Assembly (NCBI GenBank): GCA_017623115.1
Contig: JAGAPT010000026.1
Coordinates: 1-64,000, forward strand
Direction: 5' to 3'
Source: Alistipes sp.
GTDB taxonomy: Bacteria > Bacteroidota > Bacteroidia > Bacteroidales > Rikenellaceae
DNA length: 64,000 nucleotides
Part shown: piece by piece, positions 27,883 to 57,553 of the stretch
Layout: every line of letters starts with the position of its first letter
Position numbering within the stretch: position 1 is the first letter of the stretch
Notes under the pieces: generated by a model
What the model saw: only the letters and a program-made list of their open reading frames with translations
Database searches by the model: none
Told to the model about the DNA's origin: nothing
Made by a program: the position numbers and the translations under genes

Positions 27883-29433
27883 TTATCGTTTGGGTTTGAG
27901 CACCAGGAACGGCACAATCATCTCCTCCATCGAGATGCCGCCATGCTGGAACGTATTGCGATAGTAGCGCACATAGCGATTCGCATCGTTGTTATAGACC
28001 AGAAAATCGCTGTTGTAGGCAAAAATATAGCTTGACGAGAGGTTGCCCGAGGGCAATTGGATATCCTCAGGACGCTGCACCTCATAGACCTCACGCGCAT
28101 TATAGAGTAGATTGCGACCCGTCTTATAACGCAGGTTAGCCGATGTTTCGCGGTCTCCCGTCACGCGCACCGGATTGTCCACGCGAATCGTACCATGATC
28201 CGAGGTGATGATGACCGTATGGCGTTTCTCGGCCAGTAGTTTCAGAATCGTATAGAGATCCGAATGCTCGAACCACGAACGGGTCAACGAGCGGAACGCC
28301 GCCTCGTTTTCAGTCAGTTCACGCACCACATCCGTCTCGGTGCGGGCATGCGACAAAATATCGAGGAAATTGTAGACAATCACCGAAAAATCAGCCTCAT
28401 AGACCCGACGGATATTATCCACCAGGCGACGTCCCTGCTCGGGGCGAATCAGCTTATCGAAGGTCGTGCGCCACGTCTTTCCGTGCTGCGCCATCAGGCG
28501 GCGCAGGAACTCCTCCTCATATTGATTCTTACCGCCATCCTCATTGTCATTGAGCCACTTCTGCGGCATCAGACGGTCGATGGCCAGCGGCATCAACCCC
28601 GCAAAAATCGCATTGCGGGCATACTGGGTTGCCGTAGGCAGAATGGCACAATAGAACTCCTCCGAGGCCACATCGTAATAACCACGCAAGAGCGACGAGA
28701 TAGCTCGCCACTGATCATAGCGGAAATTATCAATGAGCAGCAGCGTTGTCTTCTCGTTTTCGTCGACAATCGGGAAAATCGACGAGCGCATCAGCGTATG
28801 CGACATCGTTGGGGTATCCTCCGCACGGCGATTAATCCAGTTGTAATAGTTGCGACGCACAAACTTCGAGAAGGCCTGATTGGCCTCGTTCTTTTGATAG
28901 GCCAGCACCTCCTTGATGCTCGGGTCGGTCGAACCCTCCAGTTCAATCTCCCACGCCGTCAATCGACGATAGAGTGAGCACCAATCGGTAAAGGTATCGG
29001 CCATCTGCAACGAAGCGGACAGACGCCCGAACTCCGAGCGATAATCAGCCGTCGTCTGCTCGGTAACGAGTTGCTGCTGATGGACATTCTTCTTAATCGA
29101 CAACAACACCTGATTCGGGTTGACCGGTTTAATCAGGTAGTCGGCAATCTTCGAGCCCACGGCCTTATCCATGATATTCTCCTCCTCACTCTTCGTCACC
29201 ATAATAACCGGTGTTGTCGGGCGTATCTCCTTGATTTTCGGCAAGGTCTCAAGCCCTGTCATACCGGGCATCATCTCGTCGAGAATAATCAGATCATAGG
29301 CCTCCTCCGACGCCATATCAATGGCATCGTAACCATTATTGCAGGTATCCACCTCGTAGCCTTTCTGCGCCAAAAAGAGCACATGCGGCTTCAAGAGTTC
29401 AACCTCATCATCGACCCACAGAATTTTTACCAT
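27883..29433 (-). CDS. porX: PorX-like response regulator with PglZ domain
   Basis: The product of about 516 residues combines an N-terminal CheY-like receiver (Asp52 in LILDEMMPG, Lys102 in IKPVNP) with a helical linker and a C-terminal PglZ/alkaline-phosphatase-like domain (LLLIDNFRYDQW; LPTATQYARNAIF; TSDHGTI). In Porphyromonas and Flavobacterium, PorX works with kinase PorY and a sigma factor to control the type IX secretion system, and its PglZ domain is a Zn-dependent phosphodiesterase. No PorY-like kinase is adjacent. The start must lie at 29433 or 29442 because an earlier codon would fall inside the promoter. Confidence 0.88.
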   Translation of the reverse strand: MVKILWVDDEVELLKPHVLFLAQKGYEVDTCNNGYDAIDMASEEAYDLIILDEMMPGMTGLETLPKIKEIRPTTPVIMVTKSEEENIMDKAVGSKIADYLIKPVNPNQVLLSIKKNVHQQQLVTEQTTADYRSEFGRLSASLQMADTFTDWCSLYRRLTAWEIELEGSTDPSIKEVLAYQKNEANQAFSKFVRRNYYNWINRRAEDTPTMSHTLMRSSIFPIVDENEKTTLLLIDNFRYDQWRAISSLLRGYYDVASEEFYCAILPTATQYARNAIFAGLMPLAIDRLMPQKWLNDNEDGGKNQYEEEFLRRLMAQHGKTWRTTFDKLIRPEQGRRLVDNIRRVYEADFSVIVYNFLDILSHARTETDVVRELTENEAAFRSLTRSWFEHSDLYTILKLLAEKRHTVIITSDHGTIRVDNPVRVTGDRETSANLRYKTGRNLLYNAREVYEVQRPEDIQLPSGNLSSSYIFAYNSDFLVYNNDANRYVRYYRNTFQHGGISMEEMIVPFLVLKPKR

Positions 29434-29451
29434 AGCAGCCATTTTACACGA

Positions 29452-29482
29452 CAAAAGTAATTTATTTTTCCATCAAACGCAA
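29452..29482 (-). promoter_or_regulatory. Promoter of porX
   Basis: On the minus strand TTG (29480-29482) is 20 bp upstream of TACTTTTG (29452-29459). It gives a very short leader before the ATG. Confidence 0.7.
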
Positions 29483-29576: not shown

Positions 29577-30800
29577 TTACGCCTGCCAACGCTGGCAAAT
29601 CGAATCCAACCGTTTCGACAGGCGATTCATCTCATCGTTCAGATGGTCATGAGTGACCGTAGCATAAATCTGCGTAGTGCGTATATTGCGATGTCCCAAC
29701 AATTTGGAGATGGTCTCAATAGGCATTCCCTGCGATAGCGTTAAGGTCGTCGCAAAGGTGTGGCGGGCTGCATGAAAGGTGATGTGTTTCGGAATACCGG
29801 CCATCCGCATCAGCTGCGTCAAGCAACGATTGCACCAACTATTGCTCGGCAGTGGGAAAATCGCTTCCCCAAACTCTTTGGGGCGATATTTCGACAAGAT
29901 AGCCTTCGGCAGGTCGAAGAGGCGTACCTGCACCTGCGAGCCGGTCTTGTGCCGCGTTGTCTCGATCCAACTCACACGACCGACCTGATGGATATGATGC
30001 AACCGCAACAGCTTCAAATCAATAAACGACAAACCCGTGAAACAACTAAACAGGAAGCTGTCACGGATTAATTGGAGAGTCGGAGGAAGCGCAGAGAGCG
30101 CAATGAGGCGATTTAATTCCTGCGTAGAGAGAAAACTGCGCGTTACAAATTCACTATGCAGGCGATAATCGGCAAAGAGATCGGAGGAGAGCACCCCTTT
30201 CTTACGCGCCAACGAAAGTACATGTTTCAATGCCGTCAAATAGACCCACACCGTATTTTTTCGTCGTCCCAACTCACGTAGCAGATAACCATGGAAGGCG
30301 ACCAGAAAATCGCGGTTCAGCTCCTCCAATCGCAGATCCGCACGTCCATAATAGTCGGGAATAAAGCGTTGCAGATGCACCTCGACACTGCGATATTTGT
30401 AGTAGGTCGAGCGACTGCGATCGACCTCTACTTGTCGCAGCACTGCCTCGTTGTGCCGTGCGAAGAAGTTCAGCAACGAATCCTGCATCGTATCGGTTGC
30501 AAAGAAGCGATTGCGCACCATCAAGGGCGTCACATACGGTGATTGCCCCAACACCTCGTCATAGCATCGCTCGATGCGGGTACGCATGGCATCGAGTTCC
30601 CGATTCACGCGCACCATCTCGGCCGAGCGACCGATGGCCCGATTTTGTGCCACATCCCACGCCATGGGTGGTACCGAGAGGTGGGTCGCAAATTGCGAGC
30701 GCATGCCGTTGATTGTGATTCGTCCCATGATGGGAGCCTTTCCATTACGCAGCAACGCACTGCGTTTGATGTAGAATAACACCTTAAACGTATGTCTCAT
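29577..30800 (-). CDS. IntDOT-like tyrosine recombinase lacking Arg I
   Basis: The 407-residue protein has an N-terminal arm-binding region, a SAM-like core-binding domain (about 105-205) and a C-terminal catalytic domain. Lys285, His343, Arg346, His370 and the nucleophile Tyr379 (TTQIYATVTHD) are present. The position of the first catalytic arginine is Ser258 (CFTGLSFIDL), as is known for IntDOT of CTnDOT and its Bacteroides relatives. These enzymes integrate elements or invert DNA segments. No transfer, relaxase or transposon genes surround it. Its nearest candidate substrate is the inverted repeat between two divergent susC genes about 6 kb away. Confidence 0.88.
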   Translation of the reverse strand: MRHTFKVLFYIKRSALLRNGKAPIMGRITINGMRSQFATHLSVPPMAWDVAQNRAIGRSAEMVRVNRELDAMRTRIERCYDEVLGQSPYVTPLMVRNRFFATDTMQDSLLNFFARHNEAVLRQVEVDRSRSTYYKYRSVEVHLQRFIPDYYGRADLRLEELNRDFLVAFHGYLLRELGRRKNTVWVYLTALKHVLSLARKKGVLSSDLFADYRLHSEFVTRSFLSTQELNRLIALSALPPTLQLIRDSFLFSCFTGLSFIDLKLLRLHHIHQVGRVSWIETTRHKTGSQVQVRLFDLPKAILSKYRPKEFGEAIFPLPSNSWCNRCLTQLMRMAGIPKHITFHAARHTFATTLTLSQGMPIETISKLLGHRNIRTTQIYATVTHDHLNDEMNRLSKRLDSICQRWQA

Positions 30801-30914: not shown

Positions 30915-30950
30915 CAAAAAAAAGGTCGCTCCATGACAGGAGCGACCTTT
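30915..30950 (-). terminator. Terminator of the left susCD operon
   Basis: A perfect 12 bp stem (30921-30932 with 30939-30950) is followed by eight T residues on the minus strand. Confidence 0.9.
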
Positions 30951-30973: not shown

Positions 30974-31822
30974 TTACTCAGCCCACTGAGTTACCTCCAT
31001 GTAGTTCATGAACTGACCCCATTGTGCCTGCATGCCATAACCTACGGCATAGCCCAAGGTTGCGAACATGAACATGTTATCTTGGTAGAGGCCTTTAGGA
31101 GCAGCACACATGTAAATCGAAGTACCCGACATCGGACCGGCATAGTAAGCCGGCAAGGTCTGACCATTATAGGTAACCGACGACTCGCTGATCATCTGAA
31201 TAGCAGAACCGCCATCCCAGGTGAAATTCACATTGTGACCAGCTGCATAGTAGTTCGGCAAACGATATTGGCCCAAAATCTCCGACTTCTCAAGCGTCTG
31301 AGAATACCAATCCGCACCAAACCAGTCGCTACACATATAACCGGTACCAACAACTTTCCAGTCGGACTTCTGAACCGATACTGCATAGATGGCAGCACCA
31401 TTCTCGTTTTTCGAGTAGTAATCAGCATAGCCCTCGCCAATGGTCAATTGGATGTTATACTCCTTAAAGAACTCCATTTTGTCGGTCAAGCCAATTACAT
31501 ACTCTGCCATTGCCTCACCGGCCTCAAACGAAACCGTAGCGGGGAATACAAAGCAGTCTGCCATTGCGCACTCTACCTTCACGGGGACCTCAACAGCCTC
31601 ATCCGTCGTCTCACGAGCTACTACAACCGAGAACTCCGTATCAGTAGGCACAAAGACCTCCGAAATAGCGTTGCCATTCGGGAAATAGACGTTCTGGCAG
31701 AAGTGAGTTGCATCATTCTCTCCGCAGATAGGGCACTTATCAGGCGTTATCTCATCGTCGTTACAAGCCACAAATGCGGCTGCAGCGAAGAGCATAAACA
31801 ATATCTTTTTCATACTTTTCAT
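30974..31822 (-). CDS. SusCD-associated surface lipoprotein with Calx-beta-like domain
   Basis: The product (about 282 residues; an ATG at 31813 is also possible) has a lipoprotein signal (AAAAFVAC) and then an acidic Asp/Glu patch, as in surface-exposed Bacteroidetes lipoproteins. A CPICG...C motif close to the N-terminus resembles a metal-binding knuckle, which is unusual in an exported protein. Residues about 55-145 look like a Calx-beta/DUF4843 beta-sandwich (VSFEAGEAMAEYVIGL). The C-terminal half is rich in aromatic residues, which suits ligand binding. As third gene after susC and susD it is probably the accessory substrate-binding protein; the ligand is unknown. Confidence 0.75.
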   Translation of the reverse strand: MKSMKKILFMLFAAAAFVACNDDEITPDKCPICGENDATHFCQNVYFPNGNAISEVFVPTDTEFSVVVARETTDEAVEVPVKVECAMADCFVFPATVSFEAGEAMAEYVIGLTDKMEFFKEYNIQLTIGEGYADYYSKNENGAAIYAVSVQKSDWKVVGTGYMCSDWFGADWYSQTLEKSEILGQYRLPNYYAAGHNVNFTWDGGSAIQMISESSVTYNGQTLPAYYAGPMSGTSIYMCAAPKGLYQDNMFMFATLGYAVGYGMQAQWGQFMNYMEVTQWAE

Positions 31823-31851: not shown

Positions 31852-33507
31852 TTAGTCGGTTACACCATCCAACAGGTTCGGATTCTGATCGGGAACCGGC
31901 GTCGTACCACCTGTGTTGTTCTCCTCCTCCGAGATACCCTCGTTGGAGTTGATCTCCGAGCGCGGAATCACCACCAGGAAGGCCTCATCACCGGCAGGGA
32001 TATTGAAGCGATAAGCATCGGGCCAGTTCGACTGATCCTTACGCGAACCATGGAAACGCACCAACGGCTTGTTGAAACGCATCATGTCCGTGAAGAAGAA
32101 GCCCTCACCCCAGAGTTCGATACGACGCTGCAGCCAAATCTCGTTGCGGAAGGCATCCTCATCCGTTGCCGTGCATTTGTACTCGGGATTACGATAGGCC
32201 TTCACGAAGTCCTCCAGGAGCTTGGCACCGGCCGATACATTACCGCCCAGACCCGTAGCCTCGGCCTGAATCAGCAACATCTCCTCGACGCGCATCAACG
32301 GCCAGTCACCCGAGCAGTCCGTATTACCCACTTTATCATCCGTAGGACCAAACTTCACATTCGTGTAGGGATAGAAGGGTTCCTTAACCTCCGGAATCTT
32401 AGCCTCTGCAACCGAAACACCCGGTGCTCCCGGCCACTCGAGACCCTCAATCAGCGGCGACTCAAGGTTCTCGTCAACCCACCAGCCTTTACGCACATCC
32501 GATGCCGGAATTTTGTTGTACAACTCGGTATTGCAACGTGCATAGCATGCGACACCCGAAGCATAACCGTTACCGCTCAACGAACCCAACCAACTCTGCC
32601 AAGTAGCAACCTCATACTCAGGAACAAGGTCGCTCAAATTTACGATGGAACCCCAAATCCAAGCGTGGTGCGTACCATCCCAGAAGGTCGGCTTACCCAA
32701 TTCGGCAATGGTATAAGGCGTGTAACCGGCCATTGCCTCGGCAGCATCTGAAGCAGCCTCCTCGTAGTTCTGCATCACCAGGTTGACACGAGCACGCAGA
32801 CCATAAGCCACCTGCTGGTCAATCGTTGCTTTGTTGGTGCGCGTAAAGCCCTCCAACAAGGTAACAGCCTCGTTCAGATCACCCAGAATCTGCTCATAAG
32901 CAGCTGTCAGCGTAGCACGCGGATTCACAGCAGCCTGGTCGGCCGTCATGTCATCCGTTACAATCGGAATCGAGGGTTTGTCCTCATTGCCAACGTAGGT
33001 GTGCTGGAAACGCTGTACCAAGCTGAAGATAACAAATGCACGTGCACCCAGTGCCTGACCACGATAGGCCTTCAGCGTCTCATTATCCGTCTCAGCCGGA
33101 ATAGCAGCCAACACGTCATTTGCAGCCTTCAATAAATCATAGTGGAAGGTCCACTCTACATAAGGAACGATGTAGTTCGGGTCACGGTCCGTATAATCAC
33201 AAGCTACCGAGAACCAGTTGAAATCGTTGTTGGCGCAAACCATATCTGCGCCATTGTAATCACGGGCAATACATACCGAGGGATAACCAAAGTCATTGTG
33301 ATAGCCACTATTTCCCAAACAAAACTGGCGGAAAATCGTAGCCGACAAGTTAGCTACATCGGCAGCGATGCGCTCGGGGTTCATGTCAATAACCTCCTGC
33401 TTCTGTTGCTCGGTAACGGTAGCACCCTCGGGAGCAGTATCCAACTCACACGAGGCGAGCATCGATACACCGGCCAGAAGCATCCATATTTTATTGTTCA
33501 ATTTCAT
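31852..33507 (-). CDS. SusD/RagB-family nutrient-binding lipoprotein (left operon)
   Basis: The 551-residue protein has a lipobox (LASC) followed by ELDTAPEG and the helical TPR-like scaffold of SusD proteins. Hallmarks are the early AYRGQALGARAFVIFSLVQRF segment and the C-terminal RIELWGEGFFFTDMMRFNKP. SusD proteins form a lid on the SusC barrel and capture a nutrient. The stretch 330-400 contains Trp/Gly-rich loops likely to contact ligand. It lies 19 bp after susC in the operon. The substrate is unknown; no glycoside hydrolase is linked, so the ligand may be a peptide or glycan processed elsewhere. Confidence 0.92.
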   Translation of the reverse strand: MKLNNKIWMLLAGVSMLASCELDTAPEGATVTEQQKQEVIDMNPERIAADVANLSATIFRQFCLGNSGYHNDFGYPSVCIARDYNGADMVCANNDFNWFSVACDYTDRDPNYIVPYVEWTFHYDLLKAANDVLAAIPAETDNETLKAYRGQALGARAFVIFSLVQRFQHTYVGNEDKPSIPIVTDDMTADQAAVNPRATLTAAYEQILGDLNEAVTLLEGFTRTNKATIDQQVAYGLRARVNLVMQNYEEAASDAAEAMAGYTPYTIAELGKPTFWDGTHHAWIWGSIVNLSDLVPEYEVATWQSWLGSLSGNGYASGVACYARCNTELYNKIPASDVRKGWWVDENLESPLIEGLEWPGAPGVSVAEAKIPEVKEPFYPYTNVKFGPTDDKVGNTDCSGDWPLMRVEEMLLIQAEATGLGGNVSAGAKLLEDFVKAYRNPEYKCTATDEDAFRNEIWLQRRIELWGEGFFFTDMMRFNKPLVRFHGSRKDQSNWPDAYRFNIPAGDEAFLVVIPRSEINSNEGISEEENNTGGTTPVPDQNPNLLDGVTD

Positions 33508-33526: not shown

Positions 33527-36500
33527 TTAGAACGTAATGTTTACACCACCCGAGATGGTACGCATAGCCGAGTAGTTATAGCCACCAATGTCGCCCACAC
33601 CACCAAAGCTCTGACGCGGGTCGAGACCCTTACGCTTCGAGAAGAGGGCTACGTTGTCGGCAGCCAGATAGATGCGGATCGAGCCCATGTGAATCTTGCT
33701 CATCCACTTCTTCGGCAACGTGTAACCAACCGTAATGTTGTTGATGCTCAAGTAATCCGACGAGGTCAACTCGCGGCTCGAACGGTGCTCATACGATACA
33801 TCCGAAGCGTTCAGACGCGGAACATCCGTGTTGGTGTTGTTCGGAGTCCAAGCATTCAGAATATCCTTGTGCCAGTTCACGCCAATCGTGTCACCATAGT
33901 GCATCAAATCGAGGTACGAACGGTCGTAGATCTTACCACCCAGCTGATAGGTGAACTGTGCCGATACGTCGAAGCCATAGAACTGGAAGGTCGTACCAAA
34001 ACCACCATACAGGTCGGGCAACGTGGTACCCAGGTTTGCATTTTGGGCAGCAGTATAGTCATCGGTCGTCGAGTAGTCTCCCTTATCGGGATCCTTGTAG
34101 AAGAGGGCCTTACCGGTCTCCTTGTCTACACCTGCATAAATCGGCAAATAAGCATCATACAACGAACCACCAATCTTGACAATACGGGTCGAATACTTCA
34201 AACCCTCGGCCGGAACATCGCTCGAGAGCTCCAAAATCTCATTCTTGAGGTGCGTAGCGTTAAGGTTGATGCTCCACGAGAAGTTCTTCTTACGAATAAC
34301 TTCACCTGACAACTCTACCTCAATACCCGAGTTGCGCAGGGCACCTACGTTCATCGGAATCGACGTATAACCTACCGAAATCGGAGTCGGCTTGTTGTAG
34401 AGCAGGTCGGTCGTCTTCTTGTTGAAGTACTCAACATTACCCGACAGACGGCCCTTCCAGAGGCTGAACTCGATACCGGCATTGAAGTTGTGCGAGGTCT
34501 CCCACGTAATTTCGGGGTTACCCTTATAAGCCAAGGTCAACGCAAAATCGCCATCAACCGAACCTACCGAATACTGGTCCATGTAGGCGTAATCGTTGGG
34601 CAGGTTATCGTTACCCTGCACACCATACGAAGCCTTCACCTTCAACTCATCCAACCAGTTGGCGGTCTTCTCCATGAAGTTCTCGCGGCTCAGCAGCCAA
34701 GCGCCACCGACCGACCAGAAGTTACCCCAACGATGATCGGGATGGAAACGCGACGAAGCATCGCGACGATACGAAGCCGAGAAGAAGTAGCGATCGAGGT
34801 AGTCATACTGCGCACGGAAGAAGAAACCCTGCGTCTTGTAGTAATTTGTCGACGAACTAACGGACGGGATCTCATAGATAGCGTTGTTCAACTCACCAAC
34901 CGTCGGGTTGTACAGTGTCTTGTTGAAACCCGACAGAGCCTGCCAGGTCACCTTGTAGTGCTCGAAACCGGCCAACAGGTCGATGTTGTGATCCTCGGCA
35001 ATCGTCGTGTTGTAGGTAGCCATGTACTGCTGGTTGATACCAATCGTACGATCATGCGACACCTCAACAGCACCTTGATCCGATACATAACCGCCATAGA
35101 AGGGGTTGTAGAGGTACGAACCGCGGGCATTGGTTACATCGGCACTGATATTGGCCTTCACCTTCAAGCCCTCGTAGAGATCGGCCTCGGCATACCACTG
35201 GCCGGCAAAAGCATCGGTAAACGAGCTATACTTGTTGAGTTTGAGCGTCATCAAGGGGTTCGAACCACCACCGAAGTCACGCGACTGGTTCGTGTTCGTA
35301 CCCGAGTCATACATGATGTCACCGCGCTCGTCGTACATATGGTTACCATCGATATCGCGCACATACATCGGGTAAACCGGAGCAATCATGTTGGCTACAT
35401 AGAAGACGTTACCACCCGTACCCCACGTATTCTGACCACTCGGGCTGCGCAGCTCATAGTTCGTGTAGCTCATCGAGCCACCCACCTTCAGCCACTTCTT
35501 GGCCTGATAGTCAGCCTTCAAGCGAGCCGAGTAACGGGTGAAGCCCGAACCGTCGATCAGACCCGAGTCATCGAGATAACCGGCCGAGAGGTAGTAGTTC
35601 AAACGCTCCGTTGCACCGGCAACCGATACGTTGTACTCCTGACGGAGGTTACCCTCACCGAAGATCTCCTCGTTCCAGTCATCCGGCGTGTAATAGAACT
35701 CGCCATCCGAGTAACCAAGCTTCGCATTCGGATTCAGCTTACCATTCGTACCAATGATGTGCTCGTTGGCAGGAACCGTATAGATCTGATAACCAACACC
35801 ACCATTGTCGGTCGACAACAACGCCTCGTTCGCCTGCACGTGTGCGCTGGCTGCCGAGTTACCTGCCTGAATATAGCTGTTGTAGAGGGCTTTGTAACCC
35901 AACTCATAGTATTGGGCGGGATCCTCGATCACATCATACTTCGGAATACCGCGCGAGCTCGAACCCCACTTGGCATCGAAGGTTACGACAGCGTCACGCG
36001 ACTTACCGCGCTTGGTCGTGATGATGATGACACCATTGGCACCACGAGCACCGTAGATAGCCGAAGCAGCAGCATCCTTCAACACCGAAACCGACTCGAT
36101 ATCAGCCGTGTTGATGGAGTTCAGCGTACCCGAGAAGGGAACACCATCCACGATGTAGAGGGGATCCGAATAGGCGGCCATCGAACCGAAACCACGAATC
36201 TTGATGGTCGACGAAGCACCCGGCTGACCATTGCTCGAAGTCACCTGAACACCGGCTACCTGACCCGTCAGAGCGTTGCTGACGTTCGTCACCTGGCGCT
36301 TTGCGATGTTCTCCGACTTCACCACCGAAGCAGAACCGGTAAAGGCCTCTTTCTTGGCCGTACCGTATGCTACGACGATAACGTCATCAATGGCCTGGGT
36401 ATCCTCATGAAGCGTCACCTTGAGCGAGGATTTGCCTGCCACAGCAATCTTTGCGGGCTGGAAGCCGATAAACGAGATTGTAAGCGTGGCATTTGCCGGA

Positions 36501-36691
36501 GCGGAGATAGCGAACTGGCCTTCCGAACCGGTCGTTGTACCCTGACTCGTTCCGTCTACCATTACAGTCGCACCGGCAATCGCATTACCGTTGGCGTCCG
36601 AAACGGTACCGGTTACCTGCTTATTTTGTGCAATAGCCATGGCGGCTACACCCAAAACAGCAATTAACGATAGTACAAGTTTTCTTACCAT
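33527..36691 (-). CDS. SusC/RagA TonB-dependent transporter (left operon)
   Basis: The 1054-residue protein has a signal peptide (LVLSLIAVLGVAAMAIAQ) and a carboxypeptidase-regulatory-like domain (about 22-100: GTVSDANGNAIAGATVMVDG). The TonB-dependent plug follows (IKIRGFGSMAAYSDPLYIVDGV; VLKDAAASAIYGARGANGVI), then a large barrel ending ISGGVNITF. It imports an unknown nutrient with its SusD partner. Its first ~54 codons are almost identical in DNA to those of the divergent susC at 37240, while the rest is clearly divergent. Only a weak promoter match points toward this gene in the present orientation. No STN domain for anti-sigma signalling is present. Confidence 0.95.
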   Translation of the reverse strand: MVRKLVLSLIAVLGVAAMAIAQNKQVTGTVSDANGNAIAGATVMVDGTSQGTTTGSEGQFAISAPANATLTISFIGFQPAKIAVAGKSSLKVTLHEDTQAIDDVIVVAYGTAKKEAFTGSASVVKSENIAKRQVTNVSNALTGQVAGVQVTSSNGQPGASSTIKIRGFGSMAAYSDPLYIVDGVPFSGTLNSINTADIESVSVLKDAAASAIYGARGANGVIIITTKRGKSRDAVVTFDAKWGSSSRGIPKYDVIEDPAQYYELGYKALYNSYIQAGNSAASAHVQANEALLSTDNGGVGYQIYTVPANEHIIGTNGKLNPNAKLGYSDGEFYYTPDDWNEEIFGEGNLRQEYNVSVAGATERLNYYLSAGYLDDSGLIDGSGFTRYSARLKADYQAKKWLKVGGSMSYTNYELRSPSGQNTWGTGGNVFYVANMIAPVYPMYVRDIDGNHMYDERGDIMYDSGTNTNQSRDFGGGSNPLMTLKLNKYSSFTDAFAGQWYAEADLYEGLKVKANISADVTNARGSYLYNPFYGGYVSDQGAVEVSHDRTIGINQQYMATYNTTIAEDHNIDLLAGFEHYKVTWQALSGFNKTLYNPTVGELNNAIYEIPSVSSSTNYYKTQGFFFRAQYDYLDRYFFSASYRRDASSRFHPDHRWGNFWSVGGAWLLSRENFMEKTANWLDELKVKASYGVQGNDNLPNDYAYMDQYSVGSVDGDFALTLAYKGNPEITWETSHNFNAGIEFSLWKGRLSGNVEYFNKKTTDLLYNKPTPISVGYTSIPMNVGALRNSGIEVELSGEVIRKKNFSWSINLNATHLKNEILELSSDVPAEGLKYSTRIVKIGGSLYDAYLPIYAGVDKETGKALFYKDPDKGDYSTTDDYTAAQNANLGTTLPDLYGGFGTTFQFYGFDVSAQFTYQLGGKIYDRSYLDLMHYGDTIGVNWHKDILNAWTPNNTNTDVPRLNASDVSYEHRSSRELTSSDYLSINNITVGYTLPKKWMSKIHMGSIRIYLAADNVALFSKRKGLDPRQSFGGVGDIGGYNYSAMRTISGGVNITF

Positions 36692-36728
36692 AAGCGTTAA
36701 TTTTTAAGAGTGTTTTATAAATAAAAAG
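36530..36728 (-). repeat. Left arm of the susC inverted repeat
   Basis: This 199-base segment is the inverted copy of 37204-37401. Reading in the direction of transcription it covers 37 bases of leader and about the first 162 coding bases of the left susC. The two arms differ by one T insertion in the leader and two substitutions, about 98.5 percent identity. Similarity drops abruptly at both ends. Confidence 0.95.
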
Positions 36729-36734
36729 CCAACC

Positions 36735-36764
36735 CAAACGCATCCTAATGCATAGGACGGCCAA
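36735..36764 (-). promoter_or_regulatory. Weak promoter candidate facing the left susC
   Basis: On the minus strand TTG (36762-36764) lies 19 bp upstream of TGCGTTTG (36735-36742), one mismatch from TAnnTTTG at the important second position. Confidence 0.35.
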
Positions 36765-37028
36765 CGAATTTCAATCCCCGCCCTTGGTCGTTATTAACAA
36801 ACTGAAATATGCATTTTGGTAGCACTTTATCCTGAAAAAGTCACTAAATCATAACCTTAATATCTCGTGGAATGGATTGCAATGCAAATAGATACGGCAA
36901 AATATTGTGTGCAAAAAGGTGTAGTTTTTGGCGTTATGGAATGCTTTTTTTGCTATATATTATATAATAGGTATGGTGCTTTTTGGGCCCGTTAATCTAT
37001 CAATTCCCTATTCAAGTGCTTGATTTCA

Positions 37029-37050
37029 GCCTAAAAATGTTCATTTAGGC
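37029..37050. other. Hairpin inside the susC spacer
   Basis: GCCTAAA (37029-37035) and TTTAGGC (37044-37050) form a perfect 7 bp palindrome with an 8-base loop. It could be an operator or a binding site for a dimeric regulator. Confidence 0.4.
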
Positions 37051-37163
37051 ATTAATGCTCGGTTACAGATTGTAAGGTCGAGTGGTGGATAATCAAAAAA
37101 ATGCCACTAAACACCCCTCTTTAATGGCAATCTGTTGCATTTTGAAATTTTTTTATGAATTAA

Positions 37164-37195
37164 TTTGTTATTTATTTTTCAATGGTTTATCTTTG
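37164..37195 (+). promoter_or_regulatory. Consensus promoter facing the right susC
   Basis: TTTG (37164-37167) is exactly 20 bp upstream of TATCTTTG (37188-37195). It ends 8 bp before the right arm, so it lies inside the potentially invertible spacer. Confidence 0.8.
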
Positions 37196-37203
37196 TCGGT
37201 GAA

Positions 37204-37401
37204 CTTTTTATTTATAAAACACTCTAAAAATTAACGCTTATGGTAAGAAAACTTGTACTATCGTTAATTGCTGTTTTGGGTGTAGCCGCCATGGCTATTG
37301 CACAAAACAAGCAGGTAACCGGTACCGTTTCGGACGCCAACGGTAATGCGATTGCCGGTGCGACTGTAATGGTAGACGGAACGAGTCAGGGTACGACGAC
37401 C
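37204..37401 (+). repeat. Right arm of the susC inverted repeat
   Basis: This 198-base segment contains 36 bases of leader and the first 162 coding bases of the right susC. It is about 98.5 percent identical to the reversed left arm at 36530-36728. Identity ends sharply at GACGACC, after which the two genes diverge. Confidence 0.95.
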
Positions 37402-40338
37402 AACTCGAATGGTCAGTTTGCCGTTTCAGTACCTAACAATGCTGTGTTGACGGTATCGTTCATCGGTTATGCTCCGATGAAGGTAGCTGTTGCCGGCAAA
37501 ACTCACCTCGATGTTACGCTGAACGAGGATGCGCAAAACATCGAGAATGTGCTTATCGTAGCCTATGGTACGGCCAAGAAAGAGTCGTATACGGGTTCTG
37601 TTAGCACCGTATCGGGTGAGGCTCTGAAGAAAATGCAGGTATCGAATGTTTCGAAGGCCCTCGAGGGTATGGTACCGGGTATGCAGGTAGCCTCGTCATC
37701 GGGTCAGCCGGGTTCATCGGCAGAAATTTCGATTCGCGGTATCGGTTCGATTAACGCAGGTAGCTCGCCGCTCTACATCGTGGATGGCGCTCCTTATGAT
37801 GGCAGCATTGCCGCTATCAACCCTGCCGATATCGAGTCTATCTCGGTTTCAAAAGATGCCGTTTCAACCGCTCTTTATGGTTCGCGCGCCGCTAATGGTC
37901 TGATTATCATCACAACCAAACAGGGTAGCGCACAGCGCAATCAGGTAACCTTCGATGCTCGCATCGGTGTCAACTCGCGTGGTATCTCGAACTACGATGT
38001 CATGGAGAGCCCTGATGAGTATATGAAGACCTATTTCCAATACCTGGTAAATACAGAGGGTAGTGGTCAGGCTGCTTCGGATATCATGTTGGCTCGCTTG
38101 GGTTACAACCCCTATGTGGGGAACAATGGCGTCTTGATGACTCCCGATGGCGAGTTGGTTTCAACCGACCGTCGCTACTACGATGTATGGGAAGACGAGG
38201 TATTTGAGAGTGGTATGCGCCAGGAGTACAATGTCTCGATTTCGGGTGGCAACCAGAAGATGAAGCACTACATGTCGCTGGGTTACCTGAACGATGAGGG
38301 TATTCTGCCGAAGTCGGACTACAATCGTTATTCGGCTCGTGCCAACGCCACCTACAAGGTGAATGAGTATATCGACCTGTTTGGTAATTTGGCCTACTCG
38401 CATGGTGAGCAGAATGCACAGAACATTGCAAGCCTCAGCAACTACTCGAACTCGTTTATGTTCGTACAGCAGATTGCTCCGATCTATCCGGTATACGCAT
38501 ATGATGCTGCCGGCCAGCTGATTCTCGATGAGAATGGCAACCGTCAGTTCGACTTTGGTGATGGTACATTCGGTGAGTCGCGTACGTGGGGTAAGAGCCA
38601 GAACCCGGCTGCAACCGATGAGGCCAACCTCAATCAGACGTTGACCGATCAGGTAAGTGCCCGTGCCGGTATCAACATCAGCCCGATTGAGGGCCTGAAG
38701 TTGTCGGCTAACGTATCCTACGATATGGTTAACCAGGCTGCTGCCACCTTCATGACCCCGTCGTTCGGTGATGCCTTTACCTACAATGGTACCGGTGACC
38801 GTGCACACCAGCGCAATTTCAGTTTGACGAGCAACCAATTGATTACCTATGCCAAGACGCTTGGCAACCACTCGTTCAGCGTGATGGCCGGTCACGAGTC
38901 GTATAAGTGGAAGAACCGCTACTTCTCGGGTACGAAGCGTAATTACTACGACCCGGAGAACCCCGAGTTCAACAATGCTATCTCGATGCAGGATTTGACC
39001 TCGTATTCGAACGAGGAGACCATTGAGTCGTTCTTTGGTTCGGTACACTATGAGTATGGTAATCGCTACTACCTCGATGCAAACATCCGTACGGATGGTT
39101 CGTCGCGTTTCCACAAGGACAACCGTTGGGGTACGTTCTGGTCAGTAGGTGCCAACTGGCGTCTGTCGCAGGAGGCCTTCTTGAAGGATGTTGACTGGAT
39201 CACGAACTTGGCGTTGAAGGCTTCGTATGGTACGACGGGTAACAACTCAATCAACAACTACTACGCTTATAAAGATCAGTATACGGTTAGTCCCGATGGT
39301 GACAATTTCGCTGTTAAGCAGACCTACTGGGGTAACAAAGATCTGACGTGGGAGCAGACGACCAACCTGAACATCGGCCTCAGCGCATCGTTGTTCGATG
39401 CCCGCTTGAAGTTCGATGCCGAATGGTACACGAAACGCACCGAGGATATGCTCTACGACATGCCTTATCCCCCCTCGTCGGGTATTGTAAGCGTACCGAT
39501 GAATATCATGACGATGAAGAACACCGGTATGGAGTTCACACTTTCGGGTAAGCCCATTCAGACGAAGGATATGTCGCTGGAGATTGTGCTGACCGGTTCG
39601 TTCTATGAGAATGAGGTTACCGACCTGCCGGAGGCAAAGCGTGAGGATGGTATTACGCACAATTCTTACTACTGCATCAAGGATGGTGGTCGCGTATGGG
39701 ACTTCTACTACTTGCAGTCGGCCGGCGTTGATCCTGAGACAGGTAATCGCCTCTACTGGCATCGCGAGACTGATGCCGATGGCAACGAGACTCTGACGAA
39801 AGTCATTTACGATGAGTTGAATACCACGAAAGACAAGTTCTATCTTGGTACGGCAAAACCCGACTTCTTGGGTGGTGTTACGGTAAACTTCACATGGAAG
39901 AACCTCGACTTCTCGGTTGCCGGTAGCTATCAGTTGGGTGGCAAGGTATATGATGGTATGTACCAGTCGTTGATGCACATGGGCGGTACGGCCGGTGCAA
40001 ACTGGCACCGCGATATCGCCAATGCTTGGACGCCCGAAAACCCCAACACGAATGTTCCGAAGCTGAATGGTCACATCGGTCAGAACCAATGTATCGACCC
40101 CTTCCTTATCGATGGCAGCTATTTCAACATCCGTAATATCACGCTCGGTTACACCTTGCCGCAGCGTTGGGTGAAGACGCTCCGCATGTCGTCGGTACGT
40201 CTCTATGTAACGGCTGATAACGTAGCCCTCTTCTCGAAGCGTAAGGGTCTTGACCCGCGTCAATATATCCAGGGTGAGGCAGCTGCTAACTATTCGGTAC
40301 TGCGCACCGTTTCGGGTGGTGTTTCGATTAACTTCTAA
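37240..40338 (+). CDS. SusC/RagA TonB-dependent transporter (right operon)
   Basis: The 1032-residue protein shares the signal peptide and the first ~50 residues with the left SusC. Its own plug follows (ISIRGIGSINAGSSPLYIVDGAPY; SVSKDAVSTALYGSRAANGLI), and a barrel ends VSGGVSINF. The regulatory-like domain spans about residues 22-100. It is a TonB-dependent outer membrane importer paired with the SusD protein 14 bp downstream. A consensus promoter lies immediately upstream, so in the sequenced orientation this operon should be the expressed one. The substrate is unknown. Confidence 0.95.
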   Translation: MVRKLVLSLIAVLGVAAMAIAQNKQVTGTVSDANGNAIAGATVMVDGTSQGTTTNSNGQFAVSVPNNAVLTVSFIGYAPMKVAVAGKTHLDVTLNEDAQNIENVLIVAYGTAKKESYTGSVSTVSGEALKKMQVSNVSKALEGMVPGMQVASSSGQPGSSAEISIRGIGSINAGSSPLYIVDGAPYDGSIAAINPADIESISVSKDAVSTALYGSRAANGLIIITTKQGSAQRNQVTFDARIGVNSRGISNYDVMESPDEYMKTYFQYLVNTEGSGQAASDIMLARLGYNPYVGNNGVLMTPDGELVSTDRRYYDVWEDEVFESGMRQEYNVSISGGNQKMKHYMSLGYLNDEGILPKSDYNRYSARANATYKVNEYIDLFGNLAYSHGEQNAQNIASLSNYSNSFMFVQQIAPIYPVYAYDAAGQLILDENGNRQFDFGDGTFGESRTWGKSQNPAATDEANLNQTLTDQVSARAGINISPIEGLKLSANVSYDMVNQAAATFMTPSFGDAFTYNGTGDRAHQRNFSLTSNQLITYAKTLGNHSFSVMAGHESYKWKNRYFSGTKRNYYDPENPEFNNAISMQDLTSYSNEETIESFFGSVHYEYGNRYYLDANIRTDGSSRFHKDNRWGTFWSVGANWRLSQEAFLKDVDWITNLALKASYGTTGNNSINNYYAYKDQYTVSPDGDNFAVKQTYWGNKDLTWEQTTNLNIGLSASLFDARLKFDAEWYTKRTEDMLYDMPYPPSSGIVSVPMNIMTMKNTGMEFTLSGKPIQTKDMSLEIVLTGSFYENEVTDLPEAKREDGITHNSYYCIKDGGRVWDFYYLQSAGVDPETGNRLYWHRETDADGNETLTKVIYDELNTTKDKFYLGTAKPDFLGGVTVNFTWKNLDFSVAGSYQLGGKVYDGMYQSLMHMGGTAGANWHRDIANAWTPENPNTNVPKLNGHIGQNQCIDPFLIDGSYFNIRNITLGYTLPQRWVKTLRMSSVRLYVTADNVALFSKRKGLDPRQYIQGEAAANYSVLRTVSGGVSINF

Positions 40339-40352: not shown

Positions 40353-41864
40353 ATGAAAATGAACAATATCAAATCTCTGCTTCTGCTGGGTGTTGCCGTA
40401 TTGTCGGCCGCCTGCTCGAGCGATTTCCTCGAGACCGAGCCCACAAGCCGTGTTTCGGGTGATCGTCAGAATGAGTTGATGCTTGAAGACCCTGCACGCA
40501 TCTCGTCAATTATCGGCGGTTGCTATCAGACACTCTATTATGGTGGTACGTTCCGCATTGGTCAAGGACTCGACAACAACGGATTGACCTCCTATAAGAT
40601 TCTGGGCGACATTTTGGGCGATGACATGATGGACATGTTGAGTTCTGGTGTTTACTCAAACGACCAAGCCTTGATTTACCACCGTGCAGGCTACGCTCGT
40701 CCGACGGCTATGTGGAGCCAGTTCTACAACATTATCTCCACGATTAACCCTGTAATCGCTATTTTGAAAACGGCCGAGGGTACGGATAATGAGATTGACT
40801 CGATGCTTGGTCAGGCTTATGCCTTGCGCGCCTATGCGTATTACTGGTTGATCAACTTCTTCCAGCATCCTTACTCGGTAGACCCCGACGCTCCGGGTGT
40901 TTTGATCTACCTCGACGATGCCACTAAGAATGTCTTGAAGCGAGCACCGGTAAAGGATGTGTATGCCGTAATCGACGCAGACTTTGCTGAGGCTTGCCGC
41001 CTGCTGGCCGGCAAGAAGGTACCCAATACCGCCATTGGCGAGCACATGGCTGCCGGTATGTATGCCAACGCTTTGATGTTCCTGGGCCGTTATGAGGAGG
41101 CTGCTGCAAAGGCAGAGCATGCTACGAAGGGCTTCAAGCTGGGTGGCGCAGCCGATCTGTTGTCGGGTTTCAACTCACTCTCGATGTGCGAGGCCATGTT
41201 TGGTTTTGCTGTAACGGAGGAGTGGAATCTGGTATATGGCACGTTCATGTCAATGATGAACCCTTACGTCGATGGTTATGCCGTACCGGGTTATTTCCCG
41301 ATTGTAGCCTCAAGTGATTTGGTAGACAACATCAACCCGAATGATATTCGTAAGAATTGGTTTGGATACAAGGAGAGCCTGAATATCTATGGTTTCGACT
41401 TCTCAATTGTTGAGCAATTGGGGTGCATGGACTATGTGCCCAATAAGTTCCTCTGCCCCGGAAACTTCATGGCAGACGTAATTTACACGCACGTTGCCGA
41501 GTTCTACTTTGTCGCTGCTGAGGCTTATTACCTGAATCAGGATGAGGCAAACGCACGTCGCATGCTGAATGCTGTGATGTCGACCCGTATCTCGGGTTAC
41601 AACTGCACTCTTTCGGGTCAGGCTCTCTACGACGAGATCTGCTTCCAGAAGCGCGTTGAGATGTGGGGTGAGGGTGTTCGTATCTTCGACGGAAAGCGTC
41701 GTGACGAGACCTTCGATCGCACGAAGTCGAAGTACTATCCTGCCAAGTTAGCAGCTTACAACGCCTTGACCTATAAGGCTCGTGACCAGCGTAACACCTA
41801 TCAGATTCCGACCCGTGAGATGGACAACAACGAGAATCTGACGCCGGAGGATCAGAATCCTTAA
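40353..41864 (+). CDS. SusD/RagB-family nutrient-binding lipoprotein (right operon)
   Basis: The 503-residue protein has a lipobox (LSAAC) followed by SSDFLETEP and the SusD scaffold (LGQAYALRAYAYYWLINFFQHPY, then KRVEMWGEGVRIFDGKRRD near the C-terminus). It caps the SusC barrel at the cell surface. This is a two-gene operon with no third lipoprotein, unlike the left operon. A terminator lies 60 bp after the stop. Sequence outside the family motifs is clearly different from the left SusD, so the two operons probably import different substrates. Confidence 0.92.
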   Translation: MKMNNIKSLLLLGVAVLSAACSSDFLETEPTSRVSGDRQNELMLEDPARISSIIGGCYQTLYYGGTFRIGQGLDNNGLTSYKILGDILGDDMMDMLSSGVYSNDQALIYHRAGYARPTAMWSQFYNIISTINPVIAILKTAEGTDNEIDSMLGQAYALRAYAYYWLINFFQHPYSVDPDAPGVLIYLDDATKNVLKRAPVKDVYAVIDADFAEACRLLAGKKVPNTAIGEHMAAGMYANALMFLGRYEEAAAKAEHATKGFKLGGAADLLSGFNSLSMCEAMFGFAVTEEWNLVYGTFMSMMNPYVDGYAVPGYFPIVASSDLVDNINPNDIRKNWFGYKESLNIYGFDFSIVEQLGCMDYVPNKFLCPGNFMADVIYTHVAEFYFVAAEAYYLNQDEANARRMLNAVMSTRISGYNCTLSGQALYDEICFQKRVEMWGEGVRIFDGKRRDETFDRTKSKYYPAKLAAYNALTYKARDQRNTYQIPTREMDNNENLTPEDQNP

Positions 41865-42264: not shown

Positions 42265-44154
42265 TTATTTGCGCTTAAATTCAACAATCAGTGCCTCGCG
42301 CGGGCCTACGGTCGTCGCATCAGAAAGCGTCACGGATTCGCCCGTCAGCACGTTGCGACCATTGGCAAGCGTCGAGCTAATTTCGGCATAATTCGACCAT
42401 GGAATCTGCCGTTTGCCACGTGAATTATTCACATAGACAAAGACTGCATCCGTCGTATCGTAGCGGAAATAGGCATAGGTATTATCGCGGCTGCCGAAGT
42501 GGAGCGTGCGGCCGTGGTGAATCACCGGCTTGGTTTTACGCCAATTAAAGAGGTGCTTCACGTGGCGGTAGACCTCTGCGGCATCGCCCGTAAGTTGTTC
42601 CGGATCGAAATAATCGACCTGATCCTCCGGCCAGCCACCCGGCGAATCGGTGCGCAGGCCACCATGCCCCTGGCTCATATCCACCGAGCGCATCATCCAC
42701 TCGTCGCCCGTAAAGAACTGCGGGATACCACGCATCGTAGCCAGCAGCGTCATGGCAATCTTCACACGCCCCACATGACCACGCAGCACATCGGCCACGC
42801 GATCAATATCGTGGTTGCCGACAAAGGTCATCATGCGCGACAAATCGTGGTAGACGAAATCATCCGAGAGGGCATTGTAGACCCGAATCATACCCTCGCC
42901 CCAACGTAGCGAGTCGGTCGGCAAAGCCATGCAGACAGCGTCACGCAGCGGGAAATCCATAATCGAGGGCAGATGACTGTTGAAGCCGTCTTTATTCGGG
43001 TTGCCCCCCTGCCAATAGGCCAGTTGCGGCACATCGGCCGTCCAGCACTCGCCCACGATATTGAGGTTCGGGTACTCGGCCAACACCGAGCGGCACCACT
43101 CGCTCATCGGCACCTTCTCGTTATAAGGGTAGGTATCGACACGCAGACCGTCCAAATCGGCATACTCAATCCACCACACCGCCCACTGCTTGAAGTAGTG
43201 GAGCAGGAAGGGGTTATCGAGGTTCATATCGGGCATCGAGGTATCGAACCAGGCACTCTCCTGCATCATCAGGTCATACTGCGATGCATTGGGGTCCATG
43301 TTCGTCGAGAAGAGGTTGTTCGTGCGGGTGAAGCTGTCGAACTGATGCACCCAATCTGCGAAGGGCAGGTCCTGCATCCACCAGTGGCTGATACCACAGT
43401 GGTTGGTCACAATATCCATGATGATTTTCAACCCACGTTTATGCGCCTCGGCGACATACTCCCGATAGAGTTCGTTCGTACCCATGCGCGGGTCGATGCG
43501 GTAATAGTCGCCACACGCATAGCCATGATAGGAGAATGCCGGCTCGTTATCGAGCAGCAGCGGAGTCGACCAGATGGCCGTCATACCGAGATCGGCAATG
43601 TGGTCGAGGTGGTCGATGATGCCCTGCAGGTCGCCACCGTGACGACCATGAAGATTCGTGCGATCGGCCTTCTCGAGTGTATCCTCCGTATCATCCGTCT
43701 CGGGCGAGCCATTGGCAAAGCGGTCAGGCATCAAAAGGTAGATGGCATCGGCCGTCGTGAAGCTGAGGCGTTCGCGCGAACCGGCACGACGAGCCGCCAA
43801 CTCATAGGGCACTTTGAACTCCTCCTCGCCTCGTGTAAAGACCAGGTAACGGGTACCGGGCACAGCATCGGCCGCAATCTCGACATCTGCAAAGAGGTAA
43901 TTCGGGCTTTCGGCACGGTGCACCTTCGTGAGGCGGACTCCCTCACCTTCGATGCGCACATCATACTCGGAAAGGGACTCGCCATGCAACAAGAGTTGCA
44001 GGGGTGTCTGCATCCCCACCCACCACGAAAGTGGTTCAACGTGGCTCACACGCCCCTCGGCATCGGCCACCGAGGCGGGGTCAAACGAGGTTGTCTGTTG
44101 ACACGAAGTTGCTATCATAAGCACCGCAGGAATCAATAATTGGTAAATCTTCAT
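42265..44154 (-). CDS. GH13 lipoprotein with cyclomaltodextrinase-type N-terminal domain
   Basis: The protein of about 629 residues has a lipobox (IATSC, Cys18), an N-terminal beta-sandwich as in cyclomaltodextrinases and neopullulanases (about 30-120), a GH13 barrel and a C-terminal beta domain. Catalytic residues are Asp340 (LRVDTY), Glu369 (VGECW) and Asp449 (GNHDID). This resembles SusA of Bacteroides, which splits malto-oligosaccharides in the periplasm. ATG at 44154 is chosen because the signal peptide starts there. It is the last gene of the operon. Confidence 0.88.
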   Translation of the reverse strand: MKIYQLLIPAVLMIATSCQQTTSFDPASVADAEGRVSHVEPLSWWVGMQTPLQLLLHGESLSEYDVRIEGEGVRLTKVHRAESPNYLFADVEIAADAVPGTRYLVFTRGEEEFKVPYELAARRAGSRERLSFTTADAIYLLMPDRFANGSPETDDTEDTLEKADRTNLHGRHGGDLQGIIDHLDHIADLGMTAIWSTPLLLDNEPAFSYHGYACGDYYRIDPRMGTNELYREYVAEAHKRGLKIIMDIVTNHCGISHWWMQDLPFADWVHQFDSFTRTNNLFSTNMDPNASQYDLMMQESAWFDTSMPDMNLDNPFLLHYFKQWAVWWIEYADLDGLRVDTYPYNEKVPMSEWCRSVLAEYPNLNIVGECWTADVPQLAYWQGGNPNKDGFNSHLPSIMDFPLRDAVCMALPTDSLRWGEGMIRVYNALSDDFVYHDLSRMMTFVGNHDIDRVADVLRGHVGRVKIAMTLLATMRGIPQFFTGDEWMMRSVDMSQGHGGLRTDSPGGWPEDQVDYFDPEQLTGDAAEVYRHVKHLFNWRKTKPVIHHGRTLHFGSRDNTYAYFRYDTTDAVFVYVNNSRGKRQIPWSNYAEISSTLANGRNVLTGESVTLSDATTVGPREALIVEFKRK

Positions 44155-44235
44155 TGGGTAAAGGTATCTCTTTTTTTTCGAAAAAAGGCGCAAAGAGGGG
44201 CTAAAGACCCTACCCTGCGCCTCGAACGCTCTACG

Positions 44236-45579
44236 CTATTTCACATAGACAGCATAGCCCCATGCCGGCAGCACAACGGCCGTCTCGACCGTAGCAGGTG
44301 CACCATACATATCGGTATAGGCTCCGGCTACCTCCGCAGGCAGGTTTAGTTGCTGCTCCTCGGCCGAGAGGTTGAAGAGGCACAACACCTTATTGCCCTC
44401 AACCTCGCGCGTAAAGGCAAAGACCTCCTCGGGGACACCACCGACATAGACCAGCTCGCCACCCTTCTCACCGGCCCACAAAGCGGGATTGTTGTGACGC
44501 AGGGCATTCAACGTGCGGTAGAAATCGGTGTATTCGTTGGCCTCCCATTTCTCCACAGGATCCTTCTCGAAGAACTCGAAGCGGTGGTCGTAGCCAATCT
44601 CCTGACCCGTATAGATCAGCGGCTGTCCCTGCGGCAAGACGTAGGTCAGCGTAGCAAACATTTTCGCAGCATCACCCAGACGCTCGAACTCCGTACCGGC
44701 CCACGAGTTCTCATCGTGGTTCGACGTAAACATCAGCTGGATAGCCTCACGCGGATAGCGCGTCGTAAAGTCCGTGACCCACTCCTTCAGAGCAGCCGGC
44801 TCACGCTTACCCTGGGCAATATCGTTCATCACATCCTTCAACGGCCATGCATAGCAGGCATCAAAGCCATCGGCATGGAAGTTCGGGCCCTCGCCCTCGG
44901 CCAGGAAGTAGAGGTCGGGGTTGATGGCACGCAACTCGGCCCAGGCAGCCTGCCAATAGGCATCGGGAATCTCCCCTGCCACATCGCAACGGAAGCCGTC
45001 GACACCCTTCTCGACCCAGAATTTCAGCACCTCCTTCATCTCGGCATGCACCTCGGGGGTCTCATAATTCAGCTTGGCAATGTCCCACCAATCGTACTGC
45101 ACGACGGGTACACCCAGCGAATCGCGCACATACCAATTAGCGGGTTTCTCATCTACCCATGCAGCATCGGGCGAGGTGTGGTTGGCCACATAGTCCAGAA
45201 TCACACGGAAGCCCAACTCATGCGCCTTGGCCAAGAATCGCTCGAAATCGGCCATCGTACCAAACTCGGGATTGATGGCACGGTAGTCGCGAATGGCATA
45301 GTAGGAGCCGAGCGTACCCTTGCGACCCTTCTCGCCAATGGGATGAATCGGCATCAGCCAAATGATGTCGACACCCAACTCTTTGAGGAACGGCAGACGC
45401 TCCTCGGCCGCAGCAAAGGTTCCCTCGGGGGTCTGCTGGCGCATATTCATCTCATAGACAACCGAGTTATAGACCCAGTCGCGGTGTGCTGCCTCCACCT
45501 TCGGGCTCTGGCAGCAACTGCTCAACACAAGGCTGAGTGCAACACCTACAAGCGTTGCAAAGATTGAAATTCGTTTCAT
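44236..45579 (-). CDS. Compact GH13 alpha-amylase-family lipoprotein
   Basis: The 447-residue protein has a lipoprotein signal (LSSCC) and a single GH13 barrel with catalytic Asp199 (GFRCDVAG), Glu228 (FLAEGE) and Asp289 (SNHDEN), plus a short C-terminal beta domain. No carbohydrate-binding module or N-terminal accessory domain is present. It probably acts on short malto-oligosaccharides. It lies 7 bp after the 699-residue GH13 gene, so translation is tightly linked, and 81 bp before the last gene. Confidence 0.88.
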   Translation of the reverse strand: MKRISIFATLVGVALSLVLSSCCQSPKVEAAHRDWVYNSVVYEMNMRQQTPEGTFAAAEERLPFLKELGVDIIWLMPIHPIGEKGRKGTLGSYYAIRDYRAINPEFGTMADFERFLAKAHELGFRVILDYVANHTSPDAAWVDEKPANWYVRDSLGVPVVQYDWWDIAKLNYETPEVHAEMKEVLKFWVEKGVDGFRCDVAGEIPDAYWQAAWAELRAINPDLYFLAEGEGPNFHADGFDACYAWPLKDVMNDIAQGKREPAALKEWVTDFTTRYPREAIQLMFTSNHDENSWAGTEFERLGDAAKMFATLTYVLPQGQPLIYTGQEIGYDHRFEFFEKDPVEKWEANEYTDFYRTLNALRHNNPALWAGEKGGELVYVGGVPEEVFAFTREVEGNKVLCLFNLSAEEQQLNLPAEVAGAYTDMYGAPATVETAVVLPAWGYAVYVK

Positions 45580-45586
45580 CGATTGA

Positions 45587-47686: not shown

Positions 47687-47752
47687 GGTCTAATATAGGT
47701 CATTTACAGACAGGAGCAGCACCATACCACTCCCCTATGTTTGGAACCACAC

Positions 47753-47786
47753 GACGGGGAGGGCGTATCCATGCGCCTTCCCCGTC
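47753..47786 (-). other. Intercistronic hairpin between the susG-like and GH13 genes
   Basis: Arms 47753-47765 and 47774-47786 form a 13-position GC-rich stem with one G-U pair. No T run follows, so it is more likely an mRNA-stability or processing element than a full terminator. Confidence 0.5.
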
Positions 47787-47815
47787 TGCGGTTATCTCCT
47801 CATCTGTGCAACGAA

Positions 47816-50155: not shown

Positions 50156-50225
50156 TGTTTTTCGTTATTTTAATCGTTCTCGGCACCCCTGCGCGTTTGG
50201 CACGCAGGGGTACCGCAAACGGATA

Positions 50226-54584: not shown

Positions 54585-54662
54585 ATCGTTCGATTTTTGC
54601 TGTATCGCGAGCCGACTGCCCATCGAGCCTTCGGCCCGCGATGTGTTTCCATCTGCTATCCT

Positions 54663-57535: not shown

Positions 57536-57553
57536 AATTTTCGATGCGGTGTT

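Follow-up and report, generated by a model that had tools for sequence, protein, structure and literature searches.

Phase-variable SusC/SusD shufflons are established in principle in Bacteroides fragilis (PMC5729914, PMC4747536), a precedent that the initial annotation of the locus studied here had invoked and that the published accounts bear out. In the intergenic ragA/susC shufflons of Region EE, the inverted repeats overlap the susC start and inversion selects the SusC/D pair that is transcribed (PMC5729914); the invertase Tsr0667 of this species targets three SusC/SusD clusters (PMC4747536). SusCD orthologues are named in a review as targets of inversion (PMC12632263), and metagenomes from inflammatory bowel disease are reported to differ from control ones in inversions near SusC/D (PMC10939037).

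Here we analyze a 64-kb stretch of DNA from Alistipes sp., referred to as the window, that holds two divergent susC-susD operons. Judging from sequence, these operons very probably form a phase-variation toggle, in which a linked tyrosine recombinase (TR) flips a promoter-bearing spacer and so chooses the left or the right operon. Like Region EE, the window has inverted repeats that run across the susC start codon. However, in Region EE large segments invert and bring alternative genes to an invertible promoter, whereas in the window the operons are fixed and flipping would be confined to a promoter segment of 475 bp; the large-segment movement of gene pairs has no counterpart here, where the genome holds two arms only, flanking the 475-bp segment. 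Unlike in the description of Region EE, a recombinase gene lies at the locus itself. The phase-variable gene shufflons of Bacteroides thetaiotaomicron, which diversify expressed nutrient receptors under a single transcription factor (PMC12548429), resemble the toggle proposed for the window in the phase-variable choice of nutrient receptors. In the invertible promoters of B. fragilis (flipped by Mpi for capsules, and by Tsr19/BF2766, a tyrosine recombinase whose gene lies close to one of its two target promoters; PMC4747536), a promoter between inverted repeats flips, as proposed for the window. These promoters switch capsule, exopolysaccharide and other outer-membrane clusters ON or OFF, whereas in the window a second importer operon would be served, which makes the choice either/or. 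We regard two fixed operons with a moving promoter as a variant of the phase-variable SusC/D systems of Bacteroides. In a literature search with most subscription journals outside its scope, none of the paper titles listed concerns a SusC toggle in Alistipes or a two-operon toggle of this kind.

Results

The genes of the locus are listed below. The TR gene, absent from the initial annotation, sits downstream of the left susC-susD-orf operon.

27883..29454, minus strand: porX, T9SS response regulator, the conserved flank that marks the locus (NF052313, 788 bits; 89-92% identity in seven relatives)
29577..30800, minus strand: tyrosine recombinase, candidate invertase (Arm-DNA-bind_5, Phage_int_SAM_5, Phage_integrase)
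30921..30950, minus strand: terminator-like hairpin between the left operon and the recombinase gene (12-bp stem, 7 G-C pairs, T run)
30974..31822, minus strand: third gene of the left operon, without Pfam or NCBIfam match at E 0.001
31852..33507, minus strand: left SusD-family lipoprotein (PF07980, PF14322)
33527..36691, minus strand: left SusC/RagA-family porin, 1054 aa (TIGR04056, 821 bits; Plug, CarbopepD_reg_2)
37240..40338, plus strand: right SusC/RagA-family porin, 1032 aa, faced by the promoter in the assembly (TIGR04056, 826 bits)
40353..41864, plus strand: right SusD-family lipoprotein (PF14322, PF07980)

Between and across the two susC starts lie the elements of the predicted switch; G183 is a relative discussed below.

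36530..36728, minus strand: left inverted arm (leader, signal peptide and codons 1-54 of the left susC), 196/199 against the right arm
36707..36728, minus strand: left candidate crossover core, 22-bp AT-rich leader element, identical to the right core; counterpart within the 23-bp breakpoints of G183
36729..37203, no strand: predicted invertible spacer, 475 bp; best matches to spacers or upstream sequence of relatives are inverted
36735..36768, minus strand: weak promoter-like match toward the left susC, TTCG..TGCGTTTG, 8/10 by graded score
37063..37076, plus strand: dyad TTACAGATTGTAAG, possible regulator site ~90-100 bp upstream of the promoter, from a motif scan
37164..37195, plus strand: consensus Bacteroidales promoter TTTG-N20-TATCTTTG toward the right susC, score 10/10
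37204..37225, plus strand: right candidate crossover core, 22 bp, identical to the left core; counterpart within the 23-bp breakpoints of G183
37204..37401, plus strand: right inverted arm (leader, signal peptide and codons 1-54 of the right susC), 196/199 against the left arm

The arms had been described as 199 and 198 bp long with three differences, which recomputation reproduced exactly to the base: one single-base indel and two substitutions separate them. Also in agreement with the initial annotation, the arms cover the leader, the signal peptide and the first 54 codons (160 of 162 nt identical across those codons). In both susC genes they reach from -36/-37 to +162, and the inverted repeats thus overlap the start codon. 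The abrupt end of identity is likewise apparent: counted from the ATG in bins of 54 nt, the two genes share 54, 53 and 53 positions, and after codon 54 the bins fall to 28-36 of 54. The full-length left and right SusC proteins are 46% identical. When used as a query against the 2.19-Mb draft genome, the arm yields two matches, both at this locus. The arms are probably longer than the actual crossover site.

Between the arms, the spacer at 36729-37203 has the 475 bp previously given, and the single consensus promoter aimed right at 37164-37195 is present in full, as a perfect TTTG-N20-TANNTTTG. A promoter thus lies between inverted repeats, the arrangement of an inverton. The match aimed left had been called weak, and the best one at the corresponding place, TTCG-N22-TGCGTTTG at 36768-36735, indeed reaches only 8/10.

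Under the proposed mechanism, the TR would recombine the inverted ~22-bp cores just downstream of the promoter, and recombination of the cores would flip the 475-bp spacer. With a single regulated promoter in the spacer, the flip would direct transcription to either the left or the right susC-susD operon; the assembly would represent the state in which the right operon is ON. We infer that the linked TR does the flipping, that flipping happens within a population, that the window is cut at the cores, and that the left operon is silent, or nearly so, in the present state.

To place the window among its relatives, we used a TR profile search, in which 96 of 180 genomes of the genus match at E <= 1e-70, and inspected 43 TR loci, namely the best 42 among the matches listed and one weaker match of the window's genome. 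At 21 of the 43, two susC genes diverge and both of their 5' ends are present. The count leaves out G034, in which both 5' ends are absent; G020, G024, G027, G108, G008, G013, G162, G189, G176 and G201, where the contig ends or the 5' end of just a single susC is visible; and 11 loci without such a susC beside the TR (L043 and L045, both of the window's genome, L183, L192-L195, L199 and L201-L203), although L183, L192 and L203 have a susC-like ORF 3-7 kb from the TR. Also excluded were the third susC of G007 and of G198, the duplicate records L062-L065, L070 and L112, and L136, which has a -7 box on one side only.

The promoters of these pairs are one-sided. An exact -7 box at the expected place occurs on one side only in 18 of the 21 pairs and on neither side in G167, G203 and G180. 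A graded score, which rates the -33 and -7 boxes beside the core out of 10 within a scoring window picked after part of the data had been viewed, is higher on one side in 21/21 pairs. At a threshold of 8/10, exactly one side qualifies in 20/21, the window being the only pair with both (right 10, left 8); at 9/10, exactly one side again qualifies in 20/21, and neither in G180. When the genes were shuffled 20,000 times and scored against the 8/10 threshold, the number of pairs with exactly one such side averaged 10.7, with a maximum of 18 of 21. Control susC-like 5' ends whose retrieved flanks contain no TR (at most ~1.5 kb on either side; for L056, L058 and L059 also 20 kb) have the full promoter in 10 of 15 cases, comprising 10/11 controls that share the M[VIS][RK]K type of N-terminus and 0/4 of other types.

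These figures bear on the possibility that the duplicated 5' ends are static, having arisen by gene conversion or common ancestry, with no flipping and a promoter of its own for each operon. The 8/10 match retained on the left side would fit such an arrangement, as would the extension of identity 162 nt into the coding region, beyond the needs of inversion. However, each TR-linked pair has a single strong promoter, as opposed to the full promoter in 10/11 susC genes with the same N-terminus and no TR in the retrieved flanks, and promoter orientation varies among relatives (see below), so that we consider static 5' ends extremely improbable. With regard to the ON/OFF exclusivity claimed for the toggle, strictness does not follow, because the window alone among the 21 pairs scores 8/10 on the other side, and exclusivity may accordingly be leaky.

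The dyad upstream of the promoter is the sole match at <=1 mismatch within the 64-kb window. With a TTACAAATTGTAAG-like pattern, which was derived from these same sequences and picked after part of the data had been viewed, and with <=3 mismatches allowed, the dyad is found on the promoter side in 15 of the 21 TR-linked pairs and on the other side in 0/21; its distance from the core, on the upstream side, is ~140 bp in most of the 15. At the same stringency it precedes 9 of 11 susC genes whose retrieved flanks hold no recombinase; there a wider range was searched and the distances are more variable than in the pairs. Of 2000 shuffles of a window stretch, 66 give a match at <=3 mismatches and none at <=1. 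The element (TTACANATTGTAAG) may be a predicted regulator site that travels with the flipping segment, in which case both operons would answer to one common signal.

Orientation was compared among relatives, a check that the initial annotation had proposed in the form of a search for inverted spacers. Four genomes (G179, G177, G067 and G183) have one common susC_A/susC_B pair, and the promoter faces susC_A in the first three and susC_B in G183. Aligned to G179, G183 is colinear to 8910, inverted over 8888-10643 and colinear again from 10621, an inverted stretch of 1.76 kb whose breakpoints are 23-bp overlaps in the leader repeat. The best repeat common to both sides in these four genomes is 21-23 bp long, which implies that long arms are unnecessary for inversion. 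The recombinase of G183 (L181) has one internal stop codon, and the orientation in this genome may be frozen.

The shortness of this repeat also weighs on the notion that the spacer flips through RecA-type homologous recombination of the 199-bp arms, with no site-specific recombinase involved. Long and nearly identical arms are what such a process would use, and those of G170 (L171) are identical at 350/350 positions. Nevertheless, in the four relatives only 21-23 bp are repeated, the G183 inversion falls exactly there, and a TR family resides at these loci; RecA-type flipping is therefore highly unlikely in our estimate. Another reservation concerns G183 itself, the opposite orientation of which could be a misassembly at the 23-bp repeat: the genome is a draft of ~80 contigs, and a short repeat may be crossed wrongly by an assembler. 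Wrong crossing of this kind would be expected chiefly if both orientations are present among the reads. We consider misassembly improbable to a degree that leaves it little weight, and the comparison of the window with G198, G020, G024 and G027 is independent of G183.

In this second comparison, the spacers of the window and G198 match with a score of 34 in inverted and 17 in direct orientation (maximum of 20 in 200 shuffles of the inverted G198 spacer), the match spanning the 84 bp beside the promoter, 37120-37203, and not covering the relative orientation of the other half. Against the 464 bp upstream of the leaders of G020, G024 and G027, the window spacer scores 38, 51 and 53 inverted and 15, 15 and 16 direct. 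Consistently, the promoter faces away from the TR-side susC in the window and toward it in G198, G020, G024 and G027. The relatives thus provided both the G183 inversion and a promoter half-spacer that is inverted in the window relative to four of them. Both orientations are seen between related species at homologous loci. A search for a second core (exact, or 58-59 bases with <=14 substitutions and no indels, so that a short or shifted copy could escape) found none across ~40 kb in G020 and none before the contig ends in G024 and G027.

Taken together, the linked TR, the one-sided promoters, the G183 inversion with its 23-bp breakpoints and the half-spacer inverted relative to four relatives back the probable invertible switch of the initial annotation. 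Crossover probably takes place in the AT-rich leader core of ~22 bp at the arm edge, represented in the window by the identical stretch CTTTTTATTTATAAAACACTCT (22 bp). Local alignments made without reference to any motif start at the T-rich leader stretch, or <=8 bases before it, in all 21 pairs. Since the predicted cores are located upstream of the start codons, inversion would leave both coding sequences intact, as had been anticipated. The homology past the core, to codon 54 in the window and codon 105 in G170, would stem from homogenisation or duplication and be unneeded for flipping. Near-identical arms accompany paired SusC proteins that are 37-46% identical: G170, with its identical arms, has SusC proteins of only 37% identity, an indication of strong homogenisation of the 5' ends.

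Two other readings of the 5' sequences were discarded. A TTAACG...CGTTAA element around the start codon of close relatives was considered as the recombination site; the G183 repeat instead is located 18-41 bp before the susC_A start. The leader core was also considered as a diagnostic signature, and similar T-rich stretches turned up in the leaders of several susC genes with no TR in the retrieved flanks.

The TR is assigned by linkage, and its role as the invertase is accordingly a candidate one. In seven aligned TRs, K285, H343, R346, H370 and Y379 are invariant; we take these to be the catalytic positions. All seven read TGLS at the place of an arginine in Xer-type enzymes, a difference that invites comparison with IntDOT. 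The order porX-TR-susD-susC recurs in eight genomes (the window, G198, G108, G020, G024, G027, G034 and G008; in G008 just the end of susC is visible). In a tree of 41 rows, the eight TRs of this layout fall on one side of a branch with support 100/99, inside a SusC-linked group of 30, and the TR of G198 is the nearest to that of the window. In 19 of the 21 pairs the TR gene is flanked by the two divergent susC genes and falls within the arm-bounded segment; in the window and G198 it lies outside.

It has to be considered that the spacer is flipped by a different, unlinked TR, the linked gene serving another site or none. The window's genome has 7 Phage_integrase matches, and B. fragilis invertases that act on distant sites are known (PMC4747536). 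We consider this unlikely, given that the linked TR belongs to the group found at these susC loci and that the TR sits between both susC genes, in the segment that the arms enclose, in 19 of the 21 pairs. The five TR ORFs of B. fragilis Q1F2 placed in the tree, with none of them assigned to Tsr0667, fall outside the SusC-linked group in the tree. Across 14 TR regions of B. fragilis Q1F2, a Parabacteroides and a Phocaeicola, susC-like ORFs were present in 2, both from Phocaeicola; separately, the B. fragilis locus L127 has a susC-like piece ~8 kb from a TR.

A model in which the TR is co-expressed as the last gene of the left operon, and hence only in the left-ON state, was set aside in view of the hairpin at 30921-30950 and of the gap of 156-207 bp between the TR and the upstream ORF, which recurs in the eight porX-layout loci; we do not rely on it. 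In a hairpin scan over 8 kb, 10 such sites compare with 7.3 in shuffles, a number near chance, and the site at 30921-30950 is the richest in G-C pairs.

Discussion

The toggle proposed here concerns SusCD complexes, the main nutrient importers of gut Bacteroidota, which are surface-exposed. With an either/or switch in many species of the genus, a clonal population could hold two importer phenotypes ready, and the switch may be relevant to the response to diet, to phage susceptibility and to immune recognition. The comparative set yields predictions of the crossover core, the recombinase, the operon that is ON and a conserved element that would move with the promoter.

The porX-layout loci admit a wider reading as well, doubtful at present, in which the porX locus would act as an exchange site served by the recombinase: susCD operons would be swapped over evolution by docking at the leader cores, and a fixed cassette, consisting of the regulated promoter with its TTACAAATTGTAAG element and the recombinase, would stay. 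If true, this would couple one inducing signal to a changing repertoire of importers. The reading derives from the disparity between the flanking and the surface proteins of the seven relatives, and from the third susC with a matching leader in G198 and G007. Identity to the window's proteins is 89-92% for PorX and 87-91% for RNaseE/G where the latter is visible, as opposed to 26-31% for the TR-side SusD and 35-53% for SusC, each measured against the better-matching of the window's two copies. A faster divergence of surface proteins would produce the same identity figures.

The third susC of G198 (L220:6740-6930) has a leader and start identical to the ON arm of that genome. The G198 locus resembles a three-arm shufflon, and a shufflon-like form may exist near the type of the window. 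In G034 (L176:15050-15600), two divergent susC bodies are joined head to head and lack the spacer as well as both of their 5' ends; we interpret this join as the result of either a deletion at the arms or a collapse of the assembly there.

Adjoining the right operon of the window, on the opposite strand, 42265-61988 is a starch-utilisation-like locus with three GH13 enzymes, a SusG-like amylase, SusE/F-like proteins, a further susCD pair and an MFS transporter. Elsewhere in the window's own genome, another TR-like ORF lies directly upstream of a different susC (L048:8481-12960, G000:C39), possibly a second phase-variable importer.
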